From: a virus
Length of the DNA: 21,613 bases
Reading direction: 5' to 3' (one strand)
IMG/VR virus record: IMGVR_UViG_3300030333_002979
Span: 1 to 21,613 of that record
Shown: in pieces, positions 1-21,347 of the stretch
Position numbering within the stretch: position 1 is the stretch's first letter
Layout of the letters: each line of letters opens with the position of its first letter
Program-made: the position numbers and the translations under genes
Notes under the pieces: model-generated
What the model was told of the DNA's origin: nothing
The model's input: only the letters and a program-made list of their open reading frames with translations
Databases searched by the model: none

Positions 1-135
1 GAACGACAAACGCGCTCCGACGTGATGGCTGTCTCAAACATTCTCAAATCGCTCAATTATGAGCGCAAAAAGAAAAGGGTGAACGGAACGCCTCGTTGGG
101 TCTGGTTCCCTCCCTGTTCCCTCCCTGTTCCCTAG
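1..135 (+). CDS. C-terminal fragment of a probable VapE or primase/helicase-like replication protein
   Basis: Frame 1 is open from the first base to TAG at 133-135 (44 codons), and the gene begins upstream of the window. The fragment contains DVMAVSNILKSLNY followed by ERKKKRVNGTPRWVW. A short helical segment, a basic stretch and a V-N-G-x-x-x-x-V-W ending resemble the winged-helix-like C-termini of VapE-type and other phage/plasmid primase-helicase proteins. Such genes often sit just upstream of terminases. The last residues (PPCSLPVP) are encoded by an 11-bp tandem repeat, so the extreme C-terminus may have been altered by repeat expansion. Only the tail of the protein is visible and no catalytic motif lies in the window. 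The assignment is inferred from general resemblance and position. Confidence 0.5.
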   Translation, partial: ERQTRSDVMAVSNILKSLNYERKKKRVNGTPRWVWFPPCSLPVP

Positions 136-293
136 GTGGGAACGCCTCAAAATCCCGTTGCCCGTTGCTTTCTTATACTATGTTCCCTATGTTCCCTATG
201 TTTTATATATAAATATATATATAGGGTATTTATGGGGATATATACCGTTTAGGTAAGTTTATAGATTGCATGGAACGGGATGGAACACGGAAC
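85..293. repeat. Cluster of ten GGAAC/GTTCC pentamers in both orientations
   Basis: GGAAC occurs at 85, 139, 272, 282 and 289. Its complement GTTCC occurs at 105, 116, 127, 182 and 191. The copies at 105, 116 and 127 are phased by exactly 11 bp (unit GTTCCCTCCCT), and those at 182 and 191 by 9 bp (GTTCCCTAT). Fewer than one copy would be expected by chance in about 210 bp. The cluster spans the end of the upstream gene and the gap before the terminase genes, and it flanks an A/T-only run at 201-223. It could be iterons of an origin, a terminase (cos/pac) recognition site, or simple tandem expansion. The sequence alone does not decide. Confidence 0.7.
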
Positions 294-319
294 ACCTTTA
301 TTAATCTCATTTCTGTCTC
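136..319. other. A/T-rich intergenic region between replication and packaging genes
   Basis: These 184 bp carry no convincing reading frame. They hold seven of the ten GGAAC/GTTCC pentamers, and an uninterrupted 23-bp A/T run at 201-223 followed by further AT-rich sequence to about 246. The layout, repeats on both sides of an easily melted tract next to a probable replication gene, fits a replication origin or a packaging site. I see no strong sigma-70 promoter or rho-independent terminator. Confidence 0.5.
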
Positions 320-526
320 ATGTCTGTCTCATTTAAGAACAAGCCTGTAGTGGATCGACTCATCCTTATCCTTGCTCAGGCAAAATATACTGCGGCTGCT
401 ATCGCCGATAATGCTATTGACGATCAAGACCCTATTGACGACGAATCGATAATGATGTTATCCCGTGATTTAAACTCGATTAAAAATTATCTCCACACTG
501 CTTACGAACCAAATTTCAATGAATAA
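320..526 (+). CDS. Hypothetical 68-aa protein upstream of terminase
   Basis: This small protein is of unknown function. It is probably helical with an acidic middle (DDQDPIDDES) and has no membrane segment, cysteine pair or recognisable DNA-binding motif. The ATG at 320 lies in a direct repeat (TGTCTCAT twice, about 10 bp apart) and has no Shine-Dalgarno sequence. The gene ends 14 nt before the small terminase gene and is probably co-transcribed with it. Its place between a replication gene and the terminase would suit an accessory packaging or regulatory protein, but nothing in the sequence shows this. Confidence 0.6.
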   Translation: MSVSFKNKPVVDRLILILAQAKYTAAAIADNAIDDQDPIDDESIMMLSRDLNSIKNYLHTAYEPNFNE

Positions 527-540
527 ACTATATTTAGCCT

Positions 541-864
541 ATGGCTAAGAAATCCACCGATAGAGAAGTTGATTGCAGAGTTAATTCTGTTTATAACTTA
601 TTGATTAACGGGCATAGTAAAACCCAGGTTGTACAGCATTGCGCGGAAAATTACGGCGTCAAATTAAGACAAGCAGAAACATATATCGCCCGCGCCCGCA
701 CACTGGTTCAATTAGATGCTGAAATCGAGAGACCGCAATGGCTCCTGTCTGCACTCAGCCGTCTTCAAAATTATGAATCTCAAGCAGCAAAACGTGGTAA
801 TCATCAGGCAGCACTTCGAGCTGTGGAATTACAAGCTCGGTTATTGAGGTTTGAATTAAGTTGA
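541..864 (+). CDS. terS: Terminase small subunit (TerS-like)
   Basis: This 107-aa protein sits directly before the large terminase. Residues about 15-55 (VNSVYNLLINGHSKTQVVQH, then an exposed helix with AETYIARAR) look like the N-terminal helix-turn-helix of small terminases, which binds the packaging site. The second half is helical and ends in ALRAVELQARLLRFELS, typical of the small-terminase oligomerisation tail. Its role would be to recognise concatemeric phage DNA and direct the large subunit to cut. There is no Shine-Dalgarno sequence before the ATG. Its stop codon overlaps the TTG start of the next gene (TTGA), which suggests translational coupling. Function is inferred from position and this pattern; sequence similarity in this family is weak. 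Confidence 0.8.
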   Translation: MAKKSTDREVDCRVNSVYNLLINGHSKTQVVQHCAENYGVKLRQAETYIARARTLVQLDAEIERPQWLLSALSRLQNYESQAAKRGNHQAALRAVELQARLLRFELS

Positions 865-2222
865 CTTCTTTAATTGCGGGGATATGTGAAAAGGAACCGC
901 TTACCGCTTTTGCTTATCAGTCTTCTATTAATAGTTTGCCTACGGCGGAAGAAGTTAAAGCTCGAATACTTGAAGGACTCTTACCGCATCAGGAGGAGTT
1001 CTGTTTAAATACGGAATCAAGAAAACTGGGTCTTGTTTGCGGCTTTGGTGCTGGCAAAACGCATGGATTGGTTGCTAAGGCTTGCATGATCGCGGCAAAC
1101 AATATTGGTTTTGTTAGTGCTGTCTTTGAGCCAACCGCGCCTATGGTCCGAGATATTCTGATCCGAACGCTTAATGATTTATTGGACCAATGGGAAATTC
1201 CTTTTACTTTTAGAGCAAGTCCGTTGCCTGAATATACGCTTCACTTTGCGGAAGGAAATCATCAAATATTGCTTAGAACAATTTTGACTTACCAGCGTTT
1301 GCGGGGGCAGAATCTCTGTGCGGTTGGATTTGATGAGGCTGACACTATCCCGATGGGAGAAGCTACAAACGCTATGAATATGGCATTAGCCAGATTGAGA
1401 TCAGGGAATAATCAGCAGTTCTATGCTTCAACAACTCCAGAGGGATACGGCTGGGCATTTCATACTTTTGATAAAGAGGCAACAGAAGACACCGCATTAA
1501 TTAGAGCAAGAACGATGGATAATCCTTTTCTTCCTGACGGATTCATTGAAAGTCTTAAATCTAATTATTCAGAGCAGTTGATAAAGGCTTACTTACTTGG
1601 TCAGTGGGTCAACCTGTGTACGGGGCAAGTATATGATCGGTTCTCTAGGGATATTCACGTTAAGGATAATTTGCCTGATTACAGCGAGGAAACTTTAAAA
1701 ATAGGGATTGATTTCAACGTAGATAATACAAATGCTGTTGTATGTGTGCGAGACGGAAACAAGTTGGTCATAATAGACGAAATTGTTAAAGCCCACGACA
1801 CCGACGCACTAGCACAGGAAATCGTAAGGCGTTATCCAAATCGTAAAATTCAGGTATTTCCAGATGCTTCAGGTTCGCAACGCTCGACAAACGCAAACGC
1901 TTCTAGAACCGATATATCCATACTCGAATCTTATGGTTTTACCAACATGTCGCCGCGATCGAACCCCGCGATCAAAGATCGAGTCCAGACTTTGCAAAAT
2001 CTTCTCTGTAACTCAAAAGGGGAATCACGCTTGGAGGTTAGCTCCCGTTGCGGAAGGGTAATCGAGTGCCTTGAACTTCAATCGTGGGATGAGAAAACGC
2101 AACAACCTGACAAGTTAAATGGTTTCGATCACATGAATGACGCATTAGGATACTGTGTATATCGAGAGTTTTCTATTCTGTATGCCCGTGCAGGAAGCAG
2201 AACAGGAATTAGAATTTATTAA
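861..2222 (+). CDS. terL: Terminase large subunit
   Basis: This is the DNA-packaging motor ATPase and nuclease (453 aa). The ATPase part has Walker A GFGAGKT (residues 61-67, Lys66), Walker B AVGFDEAD (Asp158, Glu159) and a coupling motif STTPEG soon after. The C-terminal RNase H-fold nuclease shows GIDFNV (Asp284), VFPDASG (Asp335) and GFDHMNDALGY (Asp423, Asp427), the usual acidic metal ligands. It would dock on the portal, pump DNA with ATP and cut it. The start is taken as TTG at 861: GAGG at 846-849 gives a plausible ribosome site, no in-frame ATG follows before the conserved region, and the TTGA overlap with terS suggests coupling. All catalytic motifs are intact. Confidence 0.95.
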   Translation: MTSLIAGICEKEPLTAFAYQSSINSLPTAEEVKARILEGLLPHQEEFCLNTESRKLGLVCGFGAGKTHGLVAKACMIAANNIGFVSAVFEPTAPMVRDILIRTLNDLLDQWEIPFTFRASPLPEYTLHFAEGNHQILLRTILTYQRLRGQNLCAVGFDEADTIPMGEATNAMNMALARLRSGNNQQFYASTTPEGYGWAFHTFDKEATEDTALIRARTMDNPFLPDGFIESLKSNYSEQLIKAYLLGQWVNLCTGQVYDRFSRDIHVKDNLPDYSEETLKIGIDFNVDNTNAVVCVRDGNKLVIIDEIVKAHDTDALAQEIVRRYPNRKIQVFPDASGSQRSTNANASRTDISILESYGFTNMSPRSNPAIKDRVQTLQNLLCNSKGESRLEVSSRCGRVIECLELQSWDEKTQQPDKLNGFDHMNDALGYCVYREFSILYARAGSRTGIRIY

Positions 2223-3658: not shown

Positions 3659-5809
3659 ATGGCTGACCCTAGCGGAACGCCATCAAGTGTCTTCAAACAC
3701 GCTATTAATTTGAATCGTTACGGGTCAGGTGTGGCGAAGAGATTGATTATTGCTTACAACCGCATTCTGGTCGATGCGACGAAAGAATTGCAGTTAATGG
3801 GAGCAAGAGATTATTCAAGTTCTTATAGAGCAAAACGTTTAAGGCAAATTATCGGATCATTAAAAACAAGCCTCGATGGTTGGGCTGGTGATGCAACAAA
3901 ATTTATGACAAAGGATCTTGATGAATTAGCAAAAATAGAAAGTGAATTTGCTTTAGCTCAATTACTTCAGGTGACACCAGACGCTGATGACCTTGTTCGA
4001 GAATTAGAAATCAGTCCAGAATTTGCAAAGGCTGTTGTTACGAAAGACCCCACAGAATTGAACCTTGTCACGACGGAGGCGGGTGATTCTTTGACGGGTA
4101 AAGGCGTTTATAAATTGACTGCAAAGCAAGGAACGCCGATGGTTTTGCCTAATGGCGACACTGTGGAAAAAGCTTTCAGGGGTATTGCTAATACATCAGC
4201 ACAGAAATTCCGTTTAGTTGTCCAAGATGGATTGTTGACGGGCCTATCTACAGACAAGATCGCCCGTCAGATTATAGGAAGACAGGGAGGGATGAATTTC
4301 GCAGCGGGGCAGAAAATAAGTGCCAGAGCTATGGCGTTAGCAGGGGGAGAAAAAGGAACGCGATTGGCGAATCATCAGATTATGTCTTTAGTAAGAACAA
4401 GCGTTAATCAAGTTTCAAACACTGCAAGTCAAGAGACTTATAAAGCGAACTCAGCAATCACTAAAAAATACAGATACGTAGCAACGTTGGATAGTCGTAC
4501 AACTCTTTTATGCGCTTCAAAAGATGGAAAATTATTTGATTATGAAGAAGGTCCAATGCCTCCGCTTCATTTTAATTGCAGGTCAACAACTGTTCCTGTT
4601 ATTGATTGGGATGGATTAGAAAAAGATTATGGGATTGTTGCACCTGACAAAATAGAGGGAGTAGGGCAAGCAAAGAGAGCAAGCAAAGATGGGCCTGTTC
4701 CTGCAAATGAAAAATATGGCGATTGGTTATATAGCAAAAGGGTGAAGGAAGGCAGTAAAGTTTTACCTGGATCTGAGCAGATTGACGCGCTTGGATATGA
4801 TAAAGCCGTTTATTTTAATCGCTTGGCGGCTAGATATAAAGATCCGAACAAGGCAATTGTTAGCTTGGTAAGGGAGGACGGAACAGAGAAGACGTTAGCT
4901 GATTTAAGGCGTGACTATAAATTGAAGAAAGTTGATAAAGCTATTAAGGCCGCAACTAAAGAGGTCCAAGAGAGGCTTCCGTCTGTTGAACAGTTACAGG
5001 TGATCGCTTCTGCTTCTAAGTTAAAGGCAAAAGACGTTCAGCAGACGTTTGATCTAATGGACGAGATGGAAGGCAGTGCTGGTGAAAACGCCCGCAAGTT
5101 ACGTCAATTCACAGAGAAGAAAGGGGTCGCCGCTATTTGGTCTACTGGTAGAGAAGCGACTGTCAGTAGAGCCAAAAGTGAGAAAGGGATGGCCTTCATT
5201 CTTGACAATCCTTATTTAAGAGAAGCCATGAAGAAGGCCGATAAGACAAGGTTCGGTAAGGAATACAAAGAGATCTTCGCAGAAAGAGCGAGGAGAGGCG
5301 GCCCAGGCTATACGGCTAAATCTTATTTCACGATGTATAAGCAAAGAAAAAGCGTTAAAGGCTTCACTTTTAGGGAAGGTTCTAACCATATTGTTATTCG
5401 TAGAGATAGCAAGACTATTGGTGTAACAAAAGCAAGCCAGTTAGGGAAGATAAGAAAGAGCGTAAAAGATGTAATCACTAAGAGATTTGAAGGTGGCCGT
5501 TTCAATTTGGATAGGAGTGCTGGCGGTCAGTTGAGATATACAGAACCAGAAATCACATGGCTGACAACTTATATTCATGAAATGGGTCATCAGGTTCATT
5601 TCGCCGCAAAAGAATTGTCTTACGAGAAGTTTTTTGAAGGAGCTGAGAGAATATGGAAACCTAGCGTGTATGGTGGATCAGATAACCTGGAAAGGTTTGC
5701 AGAGACTTTCGTGCAGTATGTTTTAGCACCTGATAGTCTTAAAAAAGCCTCACCTGAAGCGTACAAATGGGTTGACACAGCCATGACAAAAGCATTGAAG
5801 GCGTTATGA
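3659..5809 (+). CDS. MuF (SPP1 gp7-like) head protein fused to a lethal factor-like zinc metalloprotease domain
   Basis: This 716-aa protein starts at an ATG with a strong GAGGAG ribosome site. Residues about 225-315 form the Phage_Mu_F/SPP1 gp7 domain: RTSVNQVSNTASQETY, then LDSRTTLLCASKDGK (from 277) and PPLHFNCRSTTVPV (His304, Cys307, Arg308). Such proteins bind the portal and enter the capsid in low copy. SPP1 gp7 itself is near 300 aa, so about 400 residues are additional. The C-terminus carries HEMGH (640-644) and, about 35 residues on, NLERFAETF (676-684), then LKKASPEAYKW and a terminal helix. HExxH plus a downstream ExFAExF is the anthrax lethal factor-type zincin pattern, with Glu678 the likely third zinc ligand. 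I infer a protease packaged with the genome and possibly delivered to the host. A maturation role is also possible. Confidence 0.85.
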   Translation: MADPSGTPSSVFKHAINLNRYGSGVAKRLIIAYNRILVDATKELQLMGARDYSSSYRAKRLRQIIGSLKTSLDGWAGDATKFMTKDLDELAKIESEFALAQLLQVTPDADDLVRELEISPEFAKAVVTKDPTELNLVTTEAGDSLTGKGVYKLTAKQGTPMVLPNGDTVEKAFRGIANTSAQKFRLVVQDGLLTGLSTDKIARQIIGRQGGMNFAAGQKISARAMALAGGEKGTRLANHQIMSLVRTSVNQVSNTASQETYKANSAITKKYRYVATLDSRTTLLCASKDGKLFDYEEGPMPPLHFNCRSTTVPVIDWDGLEKDYGIVAPDKIEGVGQAKRASKDGPVPANEKYGDWLYSKRVKEGSKVLPGSEQIDALGYDKAVYFNRLAARYKDPNKAIVSLVREDGTEKTLADLRRDYKLKKVDKAIKAATKEVQERLPSVEQLQVIASASKLKAKDVQQTFDLMDEMEGSAGENARKLRQFTEKKGVAAIWSTGREATVSRAKSEKGMAFILDNPYLREAMKKADKTRFGKEYKEIFAERARRGGPGYTAKSYFTMYKQRKSVKGFTFREGSNHIVIRRDSKTIGVTKASQLGKIRKSVKDVITKRFEGGRFNLDRSAGGQLRYTEPEITWLTTYIHEMGHQVHFAAKELSYEKFFEGAERIWKPSVYGGSDNLERFAETFVQYVLAPDSLKKASPEAYKWVDTAMTKALKAL

Positions 5810-6053: not shown

Positions 6054-7247
6054 ATGGCTCGTCGATATGTAAGGGACAAGGCAGGTCGTTTTGCGCCTAA
6101 AGGAGGAGGCAGCAAGGGCAAAGGCGGCAAAATGGGGAAATCTGCCAAGAACGTGAAAGCAAGGGCGGCTTATAAGGAGCAGTCAGGGAAGCTAAGAGAA
6201 GCAAAGAAGATGGGCACGTTTGGGAAAGAAGGATCAAGGGAGCGTAAATATTGGACTAGGCGGTTAGGCGGTGCGAAGTCAGGAATGACTCGCGTAAGTA
6301 ACAGGCTGGCAGGCAAGGGCAAGGGCGCAGCAGCCACAAAAGCGGTAGGAACTGGGCCAAAGCAAACAAGAGGAGTTAAGAAGAAAAGAGGAGCGAAGCA
6401 ATACGACAACACCACTAACCAGATGTTTAGGTCGAGAAAGCTAAAAAGAGATTTAAAGCGTAAATACCCTGAATCGAAAGCAGCTAAACGGGTAGAAGCA
6501 AAAGCAAAGAAGGCTACAGCAGCAAAGAAAAAGGTGGCCGCAAAGAAAAAAACTTACGGAGGCCTAACACCTAAGCAGCAATATAAAGTAGCGACAAGTA
6601 AGGCCCGTGCAGCCAAGTCAGGTTACGCACAAGACAGAGGTCAAGGGTATGACAGAGCTGGGAAGGCCGCAGGAAAAGGAAAAGTAAAGAGGTCCATGAA
6701 ACTTCCTGGAACCGATTCAGCAAGGGGCATTGGTTCAGCTAAGGCTCGGGTGACAAAGCTTCAAAAGAAATTCGGGAAAGGGGCCACAAAAGGGAAAGGT
6801 TATGGTCTATCGAAAAAAGGACAGGCGGCTAAGAGTAAATTCAAAGATTTAAAGAGGCAAAGAGGCGGAGTCACTAAGGGCAGAGGAACGATTGCACAAA
6901 GGAAGAAGAGTTTGAATGTCAGAACGACTCAACAGGCCTTTGGAATGAAGGTTAAAAAGCCAGTAAGTAAGGCGGCTCAGAAGTATATTGGCAAGCAAAA
7001 TGTTGAAGCTTCTAGGGTCGCGGCTTCTAGGGGTAAAGGCAGCAAGGCGAAAAGACGGGCTAGCCAGCAAAGGAGAGGTTCAGCCGCTACAAAGAGAGAT
7101 CGTATCTTAAGAACGGCTGAGAAAAATCTAAGAAAGAGTGGAGGGATCCAAAGCCCAACCTTTGAGAGGAGAAGAAGACGCTATCAGAAGGCCGAGGATA
7201 TTATGACTAAGGCAATGGGCGGAAGTACAGCTTGGAAAAACTTCTAA
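6054..7247 (+). CDS. Extremely basic Lys/Arg/Gly/Ala-rich protein, candidate nucleic-acid-condensing head protein
   Basis: This 397-aa protein opens with MARRYVRDKAGRFAPKGGG. I recall the same opening motif (YVRDxxGRFA) in uncharacterised marine phage proteins. By eye about a third of the residues are Lys or Arg, acidic residues are sparse, and histone H1-like tracts such as AKKKVAAKKKTYGG occur. Repeated KGKG, AKKA and SKAK patterns with few hydrophobic stretches predict an intrinsically disordered chain. No enzyme motif is visible. The frame is long, uninterrupted and sits between the MuF gene and the scaffold, so it is a real gene. A DNA-binding internal head protein, or cargo packaged by charge, is the likeliest role, by inference. 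Its stop overlaps the stop of the convergent minus-strand gene. Confidence 0.75.
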   Translation: MARRYVRDKAGRFAPKGGGSKGKGGKMGKSAKNVKARAAYKEQSGKLREAKKMGTFGKEGSRERKYWTRRLGGAKSGMTRVSNRLAGKGKGAAATKAVGTGPKQTRGVKKKRGAKQYDNTTNQMFRSRKLKRDLKRKYPESKAAKRVEAKAKKATAAKKKVAAKKKTYGGLTPKQQYKVATSKARAAKSGYAQDRGQGYDRAGKAAGKGKVKRSMKLPGTDSARGIGSAKARVTKLQKKFGKGATKGKGYGLSKKGQAAKSKFKDLKRQRGGVTKGRGTIAQRKKSLNVRTTQQAFGMKVKKPVSKAAQKYIGKQNVEASRVAASRGKGSKAKRRASQQRRGSAATKRDRILRTAEKNLRKSGGIQSPTFERRRRRYQKAEDIMTKAMGGSTAWKNF

Positions 7248-7492
7248 TCATCAGCAATAAAATCGTCTAGTGTTTCGAGGTCTTCCATGACGTTGGCCCA
7301 GAACTCAGGCACTAACAACACGTCGTCTTGGCTATCAGCTTTACCTAGTGTAATAACGTCAGCCATTTCGTTTCCTGTGACGACATAGACCATTGTTTCG
7401 TTCCCCTCGCCATCAACATCAGGGACGGAGGCAAGGAGTTCGCGTAATTCTCTAACAGTGAAGCCTTCTTCTTTAATGATTGGGCTAGGCAT
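7244..7492 (-). CDS. Hypothetical acidic 82-aa protein, the only minus-strand gene
   Basis: On the minus strand an AGGAG lies 9 nt before the ATG, supporting a real gene. The protein is strongly acidic: about 21 Asp/Glu against 4 Lys/Arg, with tail EDLETLDDFIADD. The segment FTVRELRELLASVPDVDGEG, followed by a beta-like VYVVTG, resembles small phage proteins with a TVxELxxxLxxxPD pattern (DUF6225-like) that have no assigned function. It converges with the basic-protein gene and shares 4 nt at the stops. It must be transcribed from its own promoter or by antisense reading of the region at 7493-7552. A regulatory or charge-neutralising role is speculation. Confidence 0.7.
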   Translation of the reverse strand: MPSPIIKEEGFTVRELRELLASVPDVDGEGNETMVYVVTGNEMADVITLGKADSQDDVLLVPEFWANVMEDLETLDDFIADD

Positions 7493-16988: not shown

Positions 16989-17622
16989 GGTTTACGGAGC
17001 TTTAAAAAAGAGACTTGGAGGTATTGGCCGCTTTGAATTTGAAGCGCAAAACCCCGCTCAAGCAATCAAAGCTCTATGCGCTAATTTCCCAGGCTTAGAG
17101 AAATGGTTAATAGATAGTGAACAAGATGGCATTGGTTATAAGGTCACAGTAGGGAAAGAAGAAGTAGGAGAAGATAATTTTGAAACCTTAGCAATACCTT
17201 GGAGTGAGAATGATGTTTTTAAAATCGTTCCAGTAATGACAGGGTCAGGGCGAGGATTCGGGAAAATACTCCTGGGAGCTGCATTAATAACAGCGGCAAT
17301 TGTCTTTGCTCCAGCAGCAGCAGCAGGAGGTGGCTTCATGACAGCAGCGGCAGCAGGAACAAAAATGACCGCGATTGGTCTTACAACACAAATCGCAGGA
17401 TCAATTGGTATTAGCTTGGTATTAGGTGGAGTAGCTCAAATGATTTCGCCAACTCCACAAACTAATCTTGGTCAAAGTAAAGAGGCTGCCCGATTACAGA
17501 ACTACAGTTTTTCGGGAATTGTCAACACGAGTCAGCAAGGTATGCCAATTCCTATTGCCTATGGACGAGTCTTCTGCGGAAGTGCTGTAATTAGTTCAGG
17601 CCTAGATGTAGATCAAGTATGA
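16975..17622 (+). CDS. I: Tail assembly protein I-like
   Basis: This 215-aa protein aligns by eye with lambda gpI. It begins with a ubiquitin-like part (KVVKVYGALKKRLGGIGRFE, AIKALCANFPGLEKWL) ending in IVPVMTGSG. A hydrophobic Ala/Gly-rich segment follows (FGKILLGAALITAAIVFAPA, 92-150), then SLVLGGVAQMISPTPQTN, almost identical to the lambda stretch MVLGGVAQMLAP. The end GMPIPIAYGRVFCGS resembles the lambda VLPVLYGEMRVGS end. It helps assemble the tip with gpJ, gpK and gpL. Its stop overlaps the gpJ start (ATGA). Confidence 0.9.
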   Translation: MKVVKVYGALKKRLGGIGRFEFEAQNPAQAIKALCANFPGLEKWLIDSEQDGIGYKVTVGKEEVGEDNFETLAIPWSENDVFKIVPVMTGSGRGFGKILLGAALITAAIVFAPAAAAGGGFMTAAAAGTKMTAIGLTTQIAGSIGISLVLGGVAQMISPTPQTNLGQSKEAARLQNYSFSGIVNTSQQGMPIPIAYGRVFCGSAVISSGLDVDQV

Positions 17623-20600
17623 GACAAATACAAGGCGCTGGAGGAGGTGGATGTTTTGCAGGTCATACTCCTGTAAAAACTGGTGATGTAGAGAAAAGGA
17701 TTGACCAAATAAAAGAAGGTGATTATGTCTGGAGCTTTGACGATCAAGGGCGAATCCATGAAAGCAAAGTTCTAAAAGTCCATAAGCACGAAAATGAAAA
17801 AATAGTTGAATACAAGTTATGGGGAGGTGTTAGTCTTTGTGCTACTCCAAATCATTGGGTCTTAAATCAATACAATGCTTTTGTTGAAATTGGTAGTCTT
17901 GGTTTTGATGATTGCTTAGTTAGTACAGACGATCACTTATTACCGATAGTCGGGAAAAAGGAATTAGAAAACGGGACTGTTTATAACTTAACGATTGAAG
18001 ATCATCACACCTTTTTTGCTGGTGGTATTCGTGTTCACAACGCCGGACTAGGAATTGCTGGGTCAGGCGGGGGCGGTGGGGGCAAAGGTGGTGGAGGTTC
18101 AACTCATACCCCAACAGAAGCCGATGACTCGCTTCAGTCAAAGCAATTCGCAACTGTTTTAGACCTCCTTTGCGAAGGCCCTATTCAAGGATTAGATGAT
18201 GGATATAAAAGTATTTATCTGAATGGAACACCCGTTCAAAGCGCAAGTGGGAGTAATAATTTCGAAGGCTATTCAATAGCGACAAGAAACGGAACTCAAG
18301 ACCAAACTTATATCCCCGACTCGATGGGAGCACAAAGCGAGAAAGTCGTAGGCGTTGCTGTTACTCAATCGGTTCCTGTTACTCGAACAATTACGGATTC
18401 AGACGTTGATAGAGTCAGGGTCACAATTAAAATTCCTTCGCTTCAGATCATCGAAAACGATGGAGATATAACAGGGCATAGCGTTACTTATCAAATTCAA
18501 GCTCAATACAATGGAGGTGGTTTTAACACCGTCAAGACAGACACAGTAAATGGTAAAACAACAAATGCTTATCAACGTGATTACTTAATTAGCCTTAGCG
18601 GAGCCTTCCCTGTTGATATAAAAGTTGTCAGGACAAGTGCAGATGATTCAAGTTCAAGGCAACAAAGTGCAACTATTTGGACAAGTTACACAGAAATAAT
18701 TGACGAAAAATTACGTTATCCGAATTCGGCTCTCTGTTATCTCAGATTTGACGCAAAGAATTTCAATTCCATTCCATCTAGAAAATACTTAATTAGAGGA
18801 ATAAAAGTAAAAATTCCGCATAATGCAACAGTTGACACAAGCACCCATTTGGGGCGTATCACGTATTCGGGAGTTTTCAATGGAACACTCGGAGCTGCTA
18901 CTTGGACAAATGATCCTGCTTGGTGTTTATATGACCTGCTAACTAATACTCGTTATGGAGCATCTATCCCTGCAAGTTCGCTTGATGTTTATGATTTTTA
19001 TACAATTAGCCAGTATTGTAACGAGCTTGTAGATAATGGGAAAGGAGGTCAAGAGCCTAGGTTCTCACTGAATATCGTGATAAACGCAAGAGATGAAGTT
19101 TATAACGTCATTCAAGAATTAACTTCAATATTCCGAGGGATTAGTTATTACTCAGCAGGCTCACTTGTTTTATTGCAAGATAAGCCTCAAGATAGTCAGT
19201 ATTTAATCGGTCCGAGCAATGTAGTTGGTGGAGATTTTCTATATAGCGGTACTTCACAGAAAGCAAGACACACGACGGCCTCTGTTGGATACCAAACCTA
19301 TGAAAACCTAGGGGAGGTTGAGACTGAGTACGTAGAGGACGCTGATGCTGTTTCAAAATTTGGAGTAATTAATAAAGATATTCGATCAGTCGGCTGTTAT
19401 TCGCAGGGGCAAGCTCACAGAATCGGCAAGTGGCTCTTGTTAAGCGAACAAAATTTAACTCAGACTGTTAGCTTTTCGATTTCGATTGAAAGCGGAATCA
19501 TTCTCCGACCGGGGATGGTAATAGATGTCGCCGATCCTGTAAGAGCAGGGACGCGCCGATCGGGTAGATGTTCCACGGGGTCAACTACAACTCAAGTTAT
19601 TCTTGATAGCTCCACGGACCTAGCTGTTGACCTTGGTAACAGCCCAACAATTTCCGTTTTGCTCCCCAATGGACTCGTTGAGACTAAAACTGTCACGGCA
19701 ATATCAGGTGCGACAGTTTCAATTAGTGGGGCTTTCTCAGAGGCTCCCGCAGCCCAAACTGTTTGGATGATTCAAACGACTGACGTTCAATCTCAGCAGT
19801 ATCGAGTTATTAGTATTGCTGAAAACGCGGATGCTACTTATGCCTGCACAGCTCTTGAATATAACAGCAGCATTTACGCATCTATAGAGTCAGGAATTGA
19901 TCTGACGCAAAGAGATATTACTGATTTATCTGCCGAGCCTGATCCAGTTAGCTCTTTAAGCTTTACCGAGTTTTTATATCAAGATGGTCAAACGGTATTT
20001 TCAGCTGTTGATATCGCTTGGATTAGCCCAAGAACAAGAGTTTCAGAATTTAGAGTCCAATACAAGATAGACAATGACAACTGGACTCAGGTTGTTACGA
20101 CCTCGCCGTCTTACACAATCAGACAAACAAGGCCGGGAACCCTTTCTGTTCAAGTTCAGGCGTACAACTACCTAGGAAAGGGAAGCACTTTCACAACAGG
20201 TTCAACTGACTTGGTGGGGAAAACTGCTGTTCCAGCCAATGTTCAGAACCTTAGTTTCGAAGCTATTGGTCCAAACTCTGGAAGATTGCGGTGGGATCAA
20301 ACGGTTGATTTAGATGTAAAAGTCGGAGGAAAAGTTGCGATCAGGCACAGCTCGAAAACTGACGGCTCTGGAACTTGGGCTAATTCTGTTTCACTCATTT
20401 CAGCTAAATCAGGGGTTCAAACCGAGGCGATTATTCCGCTTGTCGAAGGAGAAGTCTTAGTTCGCTTTGTCGATGATGGAGGCAGAGTTTCGGCTTCTTC
20501 TGCAAGCGTGATTGTTGACTTGCCCGACACGATGAATCAGTTGGGCGTTTTCACAGACAGGGAAGATACGGACAGCCCTCCGTTTCAAGGGACTGCTGTT

Positions 20601-21347
20601 AATTGTCATTATAGCGATACAGAAAGTGCTCTTGTTTTGGACGGTCAAAATATTGATGAGATGCCAGATTTTGATGCGATCGTCAACTTTGATGTTCTAG
20701 GCGATGTTGACTCTTCTGGTACTTATACGTTTGATGAAAAACTTGATTTAGGAGCTATTTATTCTCTTGATTTAAAACGTCATTTTGCAACAGTTGGATA
20801 TTTACCAAATGATCTTTTAGATTCCCGAGCCGCAACTGTTGACACTTTTGCTGATTGGGACGGAGAGGTCCAAAACGTAGATGCAAAATTATATGTCCGT
20901 CAAACTGATAATGATCCAGCTTCAGGGGGCGCAAGTTGGAGTTCTTGGCAAGAATTTGTCAACGGTACATTCCGAGCTAGAGGGTTTGAGTTCAAAACAA
21001 CGATGACAAGTTCAGACACAGACGAATCAATTAAAATCACTGAGCTTGGTTATTCAGCGACACTTCAAAGAAGAACAGAGCAAAGTAATGGGAATATTGC
21101 ATCAGGAGCAGGAACTAAAACTATTACATTCTCACGGCCCTTTTTCGTTGGGACTTCAGCTTTAGGTGGAGCAAATAGCAAGCTTCCAAGTGTCGGAATA
21201 ACAGCTCAGAATATGGCAACAGGTGATTTCTTTGAGATGGGAACAGTTACGGGAAGTCAATTCCAAGTAACATTTAAGAATAGCTCTGGCTCCAGTGTTG
21301 ACAGGAATTTTACTTGGAGTGCTACCGGGTATGGGCTTGGAGCTTAA
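17619..21347 (+). CDS. J: Tail tip (host specificity) protein J-like with an inserted Hint domain
   Basis: This 1242-aa protein is the central tail tip protein. After residue 141 it follows lambda gpJ closely from the start: KGGGGSTHTPTEADDSLQSK, FATVLDLLCEGPIQGLDDGY, TRTITDSDVDRVRV, SYTEIIDEKLRYPN, LYDLLTNTRYGASIP and QGQAHRIGKWLLLSEQN. A fibronectin III-like region (SSLSFTEFLYQDGQ to VQAYNYLGKG) lies near residues 785-865. The C-terminus (SVGITAQNMATGDFFEMG, FTWSATGYGLG) resembles H-type C-terminal binding modules of phage J and fibre proteins. Before this, residues 12-141 form a complete Hint domain, inserted after MRQIQGAGGGG. Without it the protein is about 1,112 aa, close to lambda gpJ (1,132). 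The start is coupled to gpI by ATGA. Confidence 0.93.
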   Translation: MRQIQGAGGGGCFAGHTPVKTGDVEKRIDQIKEGDYVWSFDDQGRIHESKVLKVHKHENEKIVEYKLWGGVSLCATPNHWVLNQYNAFVEIGSLGFDDCLVSTDDHLLPIVGKKELENGTVYNLTIEDHHTFFAGGIRVHNAGLGIAGSGGGGGGKGGGGSTHTPTEADDSLQSKQFATVLDLLCEGPIQGLDDGYKSIYLNGTPVQSASGSNNFEGYSIATRNGTQDQTYIPDSMGAQSEKVVGVAVTQSVPVTRTITDSDVDRVRVTIKIPSLQIIENDGDITGHSVTYQIQAQYNGGGFNTVKTDTVNGKTTNAYQRDYLISLSGAFPVDIKVVRTSADDSSSRQQSATIWTSYTEIIDEKLRYPNSALCYLRFDAKNFNSIPSRKYLIRGIKVKIPHNATVDTSTHLGRITYSGVFNGTLGAATWTNDPAWCLYDLLTNTRYGASIPASSLDVYDFYTISQYCNELVDNGKGGQEPRFSLNIVINARDEVYNVIQELTSIFRGISYYSAGSLVLLQDKPQDSQYLIGPSNVVGGDFLYSGTSQKARHTTASVGYQTYENLGEVETEYVEDADAVSKFGVINKDIRSVGCYSQGQAHRIGKWLLLSEQNLTQTVSFSISIESGIILRPGMVIDVADPVRAGTRRSGRCSTGSTTTQVILDSSTDLAVDLGNSPTISVLLPNGLVETKTVTAISGATVSISGAFSEAPAAQTVWMIQTTDVQSQQYRVISIAENADATYACTALEYNSSIYASIESGIDLTQRDITDLSAEPDPVSSLSFTEFLYQDGQTVFSAVDIAWISPRTRVSEFRVQYKIDNDNWTQVVTTSPSYTIRQTRPGTLSVQVQAYNYLGKGSTFTTGSTDLVGKTAVPANVQNLSFEAIGPNSGRLRWDQTVDLDVKVGGKVAIRHSSKTDGSGTWANSVSLISAKSGVQTEAIIPLVEGEVLVRFVDDGGRVSASSASVIVDLPDTMNQLGVFTDREDTDSPPFQGTAVNCHYSDTESALVLDGQNIDEMPDFDAIVNFDVLGDVDSSGTYTFDEKLDLGAIYSLDLKRHFATVGYLPNDLLDSRAATVDTFADWDGEVQNVDAKLYVRQTDNDPASGGASWSSWQEFVNGTFRARGFEFKTTMTSSDTDESIKITELGYSATLQRRTEQSNGNIASGAGTKTITFSRPFFVGTSALGGANSKLPSVGITAQNMATGDFFEMGTVTGSQFQVTFKNSSGSSVDRNFTWSATGYGLGA
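17652..18041 (+). other. Hint (intein-like) domain within gpJ
   Basis: Residues 12-141 hold all splicing blocks. Block A starts at Cys12 (CFAGHTPVKTGD), block B is CATPNHWVL (Thr76, His79), block F is VYNLTIEDHHTFFAG and block G is GIRVHN ending at Asn141. At 130 aa there is no room for a homing endonuclease. The residue after Asn141 is Ala142, not Cys, Ser or Thr as canonical inteins need. This fits A-type bacterial intein-like domains, which cleave or splice non-canonically. It lies between two glycine-rich runs, which reads as an insertion into a flexible linker. Asn cyclisation would release a gpJ beginning almost where lambda gpJ begins. Confidence 0.88.

Follow-up and report, generated by a model that had tools for sequence, protein, structure and literature searches.

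The region at about positions 85 to 293 very probably serves a marine siphovirus, likely one that infects cyanobacteria, as its replication origin, and comparison of sequences points to the virus's own PrimPol-VapE helicase (Rep) as the protein that reads it. The window, i.e., the whole stretch of virus DNA that was analyzed, comprises positions 1 to 21,613 of IMG/VR record IMGVR_UViG_3300030333_002979. The 3' end of rep overlaps the left edge of the putative origin. This kind of origin is already known, and by analogy the region resembles the SaPI/PICI class. The window also encodes portal, major head, tape measure, and tail-tip genes, as well as a terminase large subunit (861 to 2222, plus strand; identified by sequence matches). 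The host is likely cyanobacterial, because the nearest named phages by terminase sequence are Synechococcus and Prochlorococcus siphoviruses (53 to 55% identity). A nucleotide search of positions 1 to 1000 against named phages gave no match.

The pentamer GGAAC starts at positions 85, 139, 272, 282, and 289, and GTTCC starts at 105, 116, 127, 182, and 191, which accounts for all ten of the copies that the first-pass annotation had placed at 85 to 293. Their density is indeed beyond chance: ten are seen in 220 bp, a number reached by none of 5,000 dinucleotide-preserving shuffles of the 85-to-293 stretch (mean of about 0.5 pentamers, maximum of 4). Across the whole 21.6 kb, every one of the top-density 220-bp segments overlaps this cluster. 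The copies bracket a 23-bp A/T-only run, as had been claimed, and this run, at 201 to 223, is the longest in the window. To its left the pentamers are mostly GTTCC and to its right they are GGAAC only; the arrays around the A/T tract form a broadly inverted pair. The fixed phasing reported for two subsets is real in the window, with 11-bp steps at 105/116/127 and a 9-bp step at 182/191. The 9-bp pair is kept in relatives and the exact 11-bp steps are not, most relatives having 10/12 steps; exact 11-bp phasing was dropped as a functional feature.

The upstream gene, whose stop codon is at 133 to 135, contains the first left copies in its 3' end. Tandem duplication of part of this gene, suggested in the first-pass annotation as a possible seed of the first cluster, would fit with the end of rep running through the left repeats. 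The GGAAC at 85 to 89 (plus strand) lies inside the rep coding sequence, where it spells Gly-Thr codons, and may be part of the coding sequence only, not an iteron. The left iteron cluster (105 to 143, no strand assigned) consists of the three GTTCC copies at 11-bp steps and the GGAAC at 139; its first three pentamers fall in the rep reading frame, and the cluster is conserved among relatives. The central tandem GTTCC pair with a 9-bp period (182 to 195, no strand assigned), the most conserved element of the block, is found immediately left of the A/T tract (201 to 223, no strand assigned), a putative DNA unwinding element. To the right of this tract, a GGTAA element in the context AGGTAAGTTT (252 to 256, plus strand) is possibly a degenerate iteron; it is present in the blocks of relatives, namely, right of the central pair in all 92 blocks with enough sequence. 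The right iteron cluster (272 to 293, plus strand), with GGAAC at 272, 282, and 289, is in the orientation opposite to that of the central pair.

The pentamer positions are conserved in related genomes. In a set of 27 distinct sequences running from rep to the 68-amino-acid open reading frame that follows the block (ORF68; window included, with same-contig duplicates under several locus identifiers left out), 23 carry 9 to 11 pentamers in the same places, 2 carry 6, and 2 carry none. On a wider scale, a GTTCY-N4-GTTCY pair with an adjoining A/T-rich stretch is found at 93 of 100 Rep loci. The pair starts 22 to 87 bp past the rep stop codon in all 93 of these blocks, and the longest A/T run to its right measures 13 to 35 bp. 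In 92 of the 93 blocks the right side holds 2 to 4 RGAAC copies, oriented oppositely, and in 89 it is free of GTTCY. On each of eight long contigs, RGAAC is most concentrated in the block, with 8 to 11 copies per 260 bp versus at most 4 to 6 elsewhere.

Two readings of the repeats had been offered in the first-pass annotation: iterons of an origin that adjoins a replication gene, or sites that the terminase recognizes beside terS. The first of these has held up, as the block appears from these comparisons to track the upstream Rep gene and not terS. Among Rep loci with at least 400 bp of downstream sequence, 91 of 95 carry the pair, and the four that lack it have the most distant Reps (L030, L034, S-LBS1, and S-2L). 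If the region were instead a terminase recognition site, TerS would bind the pentamers and packaging would start there, from a pac or cos site. In the window, terS does follow the cluster at a distance of about 250 bp, and nearly all relatives have terL downstream. A pac or cos site would be expected to track the small terminase subunit, and the block does not do so. A terS match is more than 700 bp away at 24 of the 91 pair-bearing loci and missing from 9 others. The block is intact at 24 loci (L031, L037, and 22 more) where terS is only about 30% identical or lies 0.8 to 1.65 kb past the rep stop; in L031 and L037, terS is about 32% identical and more than 1.3 kb from the ORF68 start, and the block still has 10 and 9 pentamers, respectively. 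Conversely, the motif is altered in L011 and L017/L018, where the central pair reads GTTCT and the Rep tail is 58 to 61% identical, although terS is 93 to 95% identical. The cluster is also missing from 22 terminase-bearing loci without a Rep match, which have at most 3 GGAAC per 220 bp; these loci are partial, and a Rep may be encoded elsewhere. The first-pass annotation had named a lack of the repeats in relatives with the same genes as counter-evidence; they are present with the same Rep and absent where only the terminase is shared. Finally, packaging of the distantly related phage S-LBS1 has been predicted to be of the headful type (PMC6157547), with a terminus at position 25,643, which is about 8.6 kb from its repeats if that paper uses the numbering of the deposited record. 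A packaging signal thus appears improbable as an account of the block.

Within the window, only the 3' end of rep is present, as its last 44 codons and the stop (1 to 135, plus strand; tail ...YERKKKRVNGTPRWVWFPPCSLPVP, from frame translation). Locus L042, which is 100% identical to this product over the 38 residues queried, carries the complete gene, as do L006, L011, and L034, whose proteins have 679 to 692 amino acids in the three scanned. The full-length Reps from L006, L011, and L034 match the Prim-Pol, PriCT_2, and VapE-like domains in Pfam, the last of these with an E value of 2e-61. The sole sequence match of Rep in the PDB is a VapE-type protein, 7pds, the entry title of which is PriRep1 with dsDNA. 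A structure model of the last 110 residues, based on 15 aligned relatives, has a mean pLDDT of 79 (about 90 over residues 31 to 100) and the element order helix (35 to 42), helix (54 to 61), helix (71 to 83), strand (87 to 93), strand (96 to 102). The C-terminal domain is accordingly predicted by the model to be a winged helix. VIA-align against 7pds gives a Z score of 6.4 over 76 residues (rmsd of 3.5), tied with unrelated winged helices; because every row of this comparison is below Z 8, it supports the kind of fold only. Foldseek with the C-terminal domain returned no match at an E value of ≤0.001. A search with a Rep peptide pattern in a genome collection of 84,980 species gave 40 pattern matches, none of them a relative, and no prophage copy was found in this way.

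By analogy with SaPI/PICI and SCCmec, the Rep winged helix would bind each GGAAC/GTTCC pentamer, and the opposed arrays would set one Rep assembly on each flank of the A/T tract, the two facing each other. The tract would then melt and ring-shaped VapE helicases would load on the strands, steps suggested by the same analogy, and the fused PrimPol domain might prime synthesis. Analogous cases are the P4 alpha protein with its iterons and the SV40 T antigen with its GAGGC pentamers. A related sort of phage origin is said to have been proposed by Foley in 1998 for a Streptococcus thermophilus phage.

The closest parallel in layout is with the SaPI/PICI elements, in which the origin follows the initiator helicase gene directly on its 3' side, short iterons in two sets flank an AT-rich stretch, and the C-terminal domain of Rep recognizes the origin (PMC6092414, PMC7581432). 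The block shares with them the position immediately 3' of the initiator gene and the two iteron sets around an A/T tract. The initiator is likewise of the VapE/PriRep kind with a predicted C-terminal winged helix, its resemblance to PriRep1 being one of fold kind only. In contrast to the PICIs, which are satellites that borrow the capsid of a helper phage, the viruses considered here carry their own capsid and tail genes. Further differences are the priming domain, which here is Prim-Pol plus PriCT_2 fused to VapE, and the iteron core, a GGAAC/AGAAC pentamer with a 9-bp central pair. In SCCmec, the C-terminal domain of the Cch2 helicase is described as binding 5-nucleotide iterons (AAGTG) directly downstream of its gene (PMC7581432). 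The block resembles that putative origin in having short iterons directly downstream of a helicase gene. As outlined there, the Cch2 system has three direct iterons only, a helicase of the D5/Primase_Cterm type, and a separate polymerase-primase, whereas here there are about ten iterons in two opposed arrays with an A/T tract.

Another comparison is with the protein ORF904 of the archaeal plasmid pRN1, which combines PrimPol, helicase, and winged helix in one polypeptide and has its origin 3' of the gene (PMC4234260). Rep matches that description in uniting PrimPol, helicase, and a predicted winged helix, with the putative origin again 3'. The pRN1 origin, as presented in that source, is a hairpin without iterons, and a stem-loop origin of this type, in which the repeat sequence would be incidental, might be envisaged here as well. 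Owing to the inverted arrays, the window strand does fold better than its shuffles (z score of −3.1), as does L011 (−2.9), and hairpins have been proposed for phage BIP-1, in which a PriCT_2 domain occupies the corresponding place (PMC4234260). The pRN1 hairpin model is unsupported because relatives do not keep the hairpin potential, z scores being only −1.8 in L006 and +0.3 in L138; what is conserved is the sequence, step, and orientation of the pentamers. Of the alternatives weighed here, this one appears the least credible.

More distant Reps appear to share the layout with other motifs. The nearest named phage by Rep is S-LBS1 (MG271909; 52.7% identity over 84%), whose repeats lie between rep and the end of the record, with terS opening the record. 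As in the window, repeat arrays are thus found 3' of Rep and before terS; unlike the window's pentamers, their core is CCTAACC/AGGTTGGG. CCTAACC at 9-bp steps is followed by an A-rich stretch and then by AGGTTGGGC, again at 9-bp steps, in the opposite orientation. Seven copies of AGGTTAG/CCTAACC are found in 278 bp, a count not reached in any of 2,000 shuffles. The last 127 bp of the S-LBS1 record (L102) exactly duplicate an internal stretch of the repeat region (5173 to 5299 and 5427 to 5553). This duplicate is probably an assembly overlap, and that part of the deposited genome may be incomplete, which makes the repeat count for S-LBS1 uncertain. In the main text of the S-LBS1 paper (PMC6157547), neither "repeat" nor "iteron" occurs. 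In L034 and L030, ATCCTA-type 9-bp steps precede an A/T tract, and the L034 motif alone does not stand out clearly from chance (its count is reached by 54 of 2,000 shuffles for CCTAC and by 205 of 2,000 for ATCCT). Cyanophage S-2L (MW334946), whose Rep is about 30% identical, has 8 GGCAC/GTGCC copies in 359 bp after the PrimPol gene (L104, 4165 to 4523), with no such count in 2,000 shuffles; this cluster is a candidate origin in a 2-aminoadenine phage.

Within the main set of relatives, the central pair and Rep vary together. The Rep tail reads RKKKR or RKRKR, and both fifth bases of the central pair switch from C to T with the Rep substitution K663R (L006 numbering). All 35 loci of the K type, to which the window's Rep belongs, have GTTCC/GTTCC and all 52 R-type loci have GTTCT/GTTCT, an agreement of 87 of 87. 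The count started from 91 Reps with at least 280 amino acids and comprises those with a readable wing residue and central pair; L030, L034, L102, and L132 were left out. On a tree built from Rep residues 340 to 600 only, i.e., with the C terminus excluded, each trait (pair base and wing residue) changes 4 times. There are 3 supported independent pairs, all concordant (sign test, P = 0.25), and the sign test cannot reach 0.05 because there are only three such pairs. The K/R-C/T switch therefore has three or four independent events behind it, as judged from the tree.

Mere linkage predicts that many neighboring bases should differ between the two types, and only a few differences are fixed. In an alignment of 84 loci with blocks of at least 270 bases (250 variable columns), the fixed differences are limited to the fifth base of each central pentamer and a single indel column, and about twenty further columns differ at the 90% level. 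When the Reps are grouped by motif, 3 of 357 variable columns are disjoint, those for residues 614, 663, and 678. Residue 614 (W/Y) is in the first helix of the winged helix and residue 663 (K/R) is in its first wing strand, so that in the model both belong to the predicted winged helix; residue 678 is part of the variable tail, where gene and left repeats overlap. Only the central pair obeys a strict code, because several R-type genomes (L138, L145, and L134) keep GGAAC, not AGAAC, in the right cluster; bases of the left cluster switch mostly but not always. Transfer as a single cassette explains part of the covariation, because the wing codon and the central pair are close in the DNA. In L148, the helicase domain groups with R-type Reps and the tail and iterons are K-type, which suggests that the reader domain and the origin can move together as one cassette. 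A tentative generalization, for which the odds are somewhat less than even, is that marine free-living phages use a SaPI/PICI-type replicator in which very few winged-helix residues determine specificity (central iterons GTTCC for W614/K663, GTTCT for Y614/R663) and which has switched type several times. Co-infecting relatives would then belong to different origin-recognition types.

GC skew favors an origin at the block and is partly confounded by gene direction. It was calculated for eight contigs of 34 to 44 kb over 2 kb on each side of the block (1.55 kb on the right in G008). In all eight, the skew is zero or negative to the left and positive to the right. The distance of the detrended cumulative minimum from the central pair is 15, 17, 17, 41, 269, 568, 1846, and 1848 bp, i.e., within 41 bp in four contigs and about 1.85 kb off in two; detrending treats the contigs as circular, and only in G001 do the ends overlap (by 99 bp). 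The raw minima are within 14 bp of the block only in G001 and G010; they are 0.7 to 2.2 kb from it in G002, G009, and G011 and near contig ends in G007, G008, and G012. Rep is co-directional with the right-hand genes, and its third-position skew is negative in five contigs and slightly positive in three; it is below that of the right-hand genes in six of the eight, the exceptions being G009 and G011.

The segment between the right iterons and the terminase genes holds a second conserved repeat. CTCAT occurs three times at 11-bp steps (306, 317, and 328; 306 to 332, plus strand) and runs into the start of ORF68 (320 to 526, plus strand), a small ORF that lies between the candidate origin and terS and is missing from some relatives. 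Of 92 related blocks, 87 show an 11-bp CTYA step farther right, past the last of the right iterons. The small ORF in the terS position (541 to 864, plus strand) matches an unnamed PHROG and is not a partner of the repeats. These CTYA repeats beside a small ORF could be regulatory, which bears on a further reading of the block as an operator or promoter array, through which a repressor or activator, perhaps Rep, would control the terS/structural operon or rep itself. Inverted repeated operators are common upstream of operons, and Rep could autoregulate. Against this, positions 1 to 900 contain no sigma-70-like site on the plus strand and one weak site on the minus strand, fewer than in shuffles, although cyanobacterial or phage promoters may differ. 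Moreover, the genes that follow the block vary while the block stays constant, and an A/T tract between opposed arrays, 3' of an initiator gene, is the SaPI/PICI origin layout. A regulatory role in place of an origin is accordingly given little credence, about as little as a packaging signal.

If the block is an origin, it provides a concrete candidate origin-initiator pair for widely sampled marine siphoviruses whose replication is apparently unmapped; in the open-licence literature on origins of cyanophages and Synechococcus siphoviruses, no origin described for these viruses was found. A layout described as peculiar to satellites (PICIs) would thereby appear in viruses with their own structural genes. 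The two types would also amount to a natural experiment in which initiator and origin change together, with one base in two tandem iterons set against two residues of the reader domain.

Two other features of the window concern its structural genes. The gpJ-like tail-tip ORF (17619 to 21347) has a Hint/intein-like domain near its N terminus (residues ~9 to 144; PT-HINT, 8e-8; Intein_splicing, 1e-7), which, judging from these matches, is possibly an intein in a tail protein. An 82-amino-acid ORF on the minus strand (7244 to 7492) is found amid the plus-strand structural genes.
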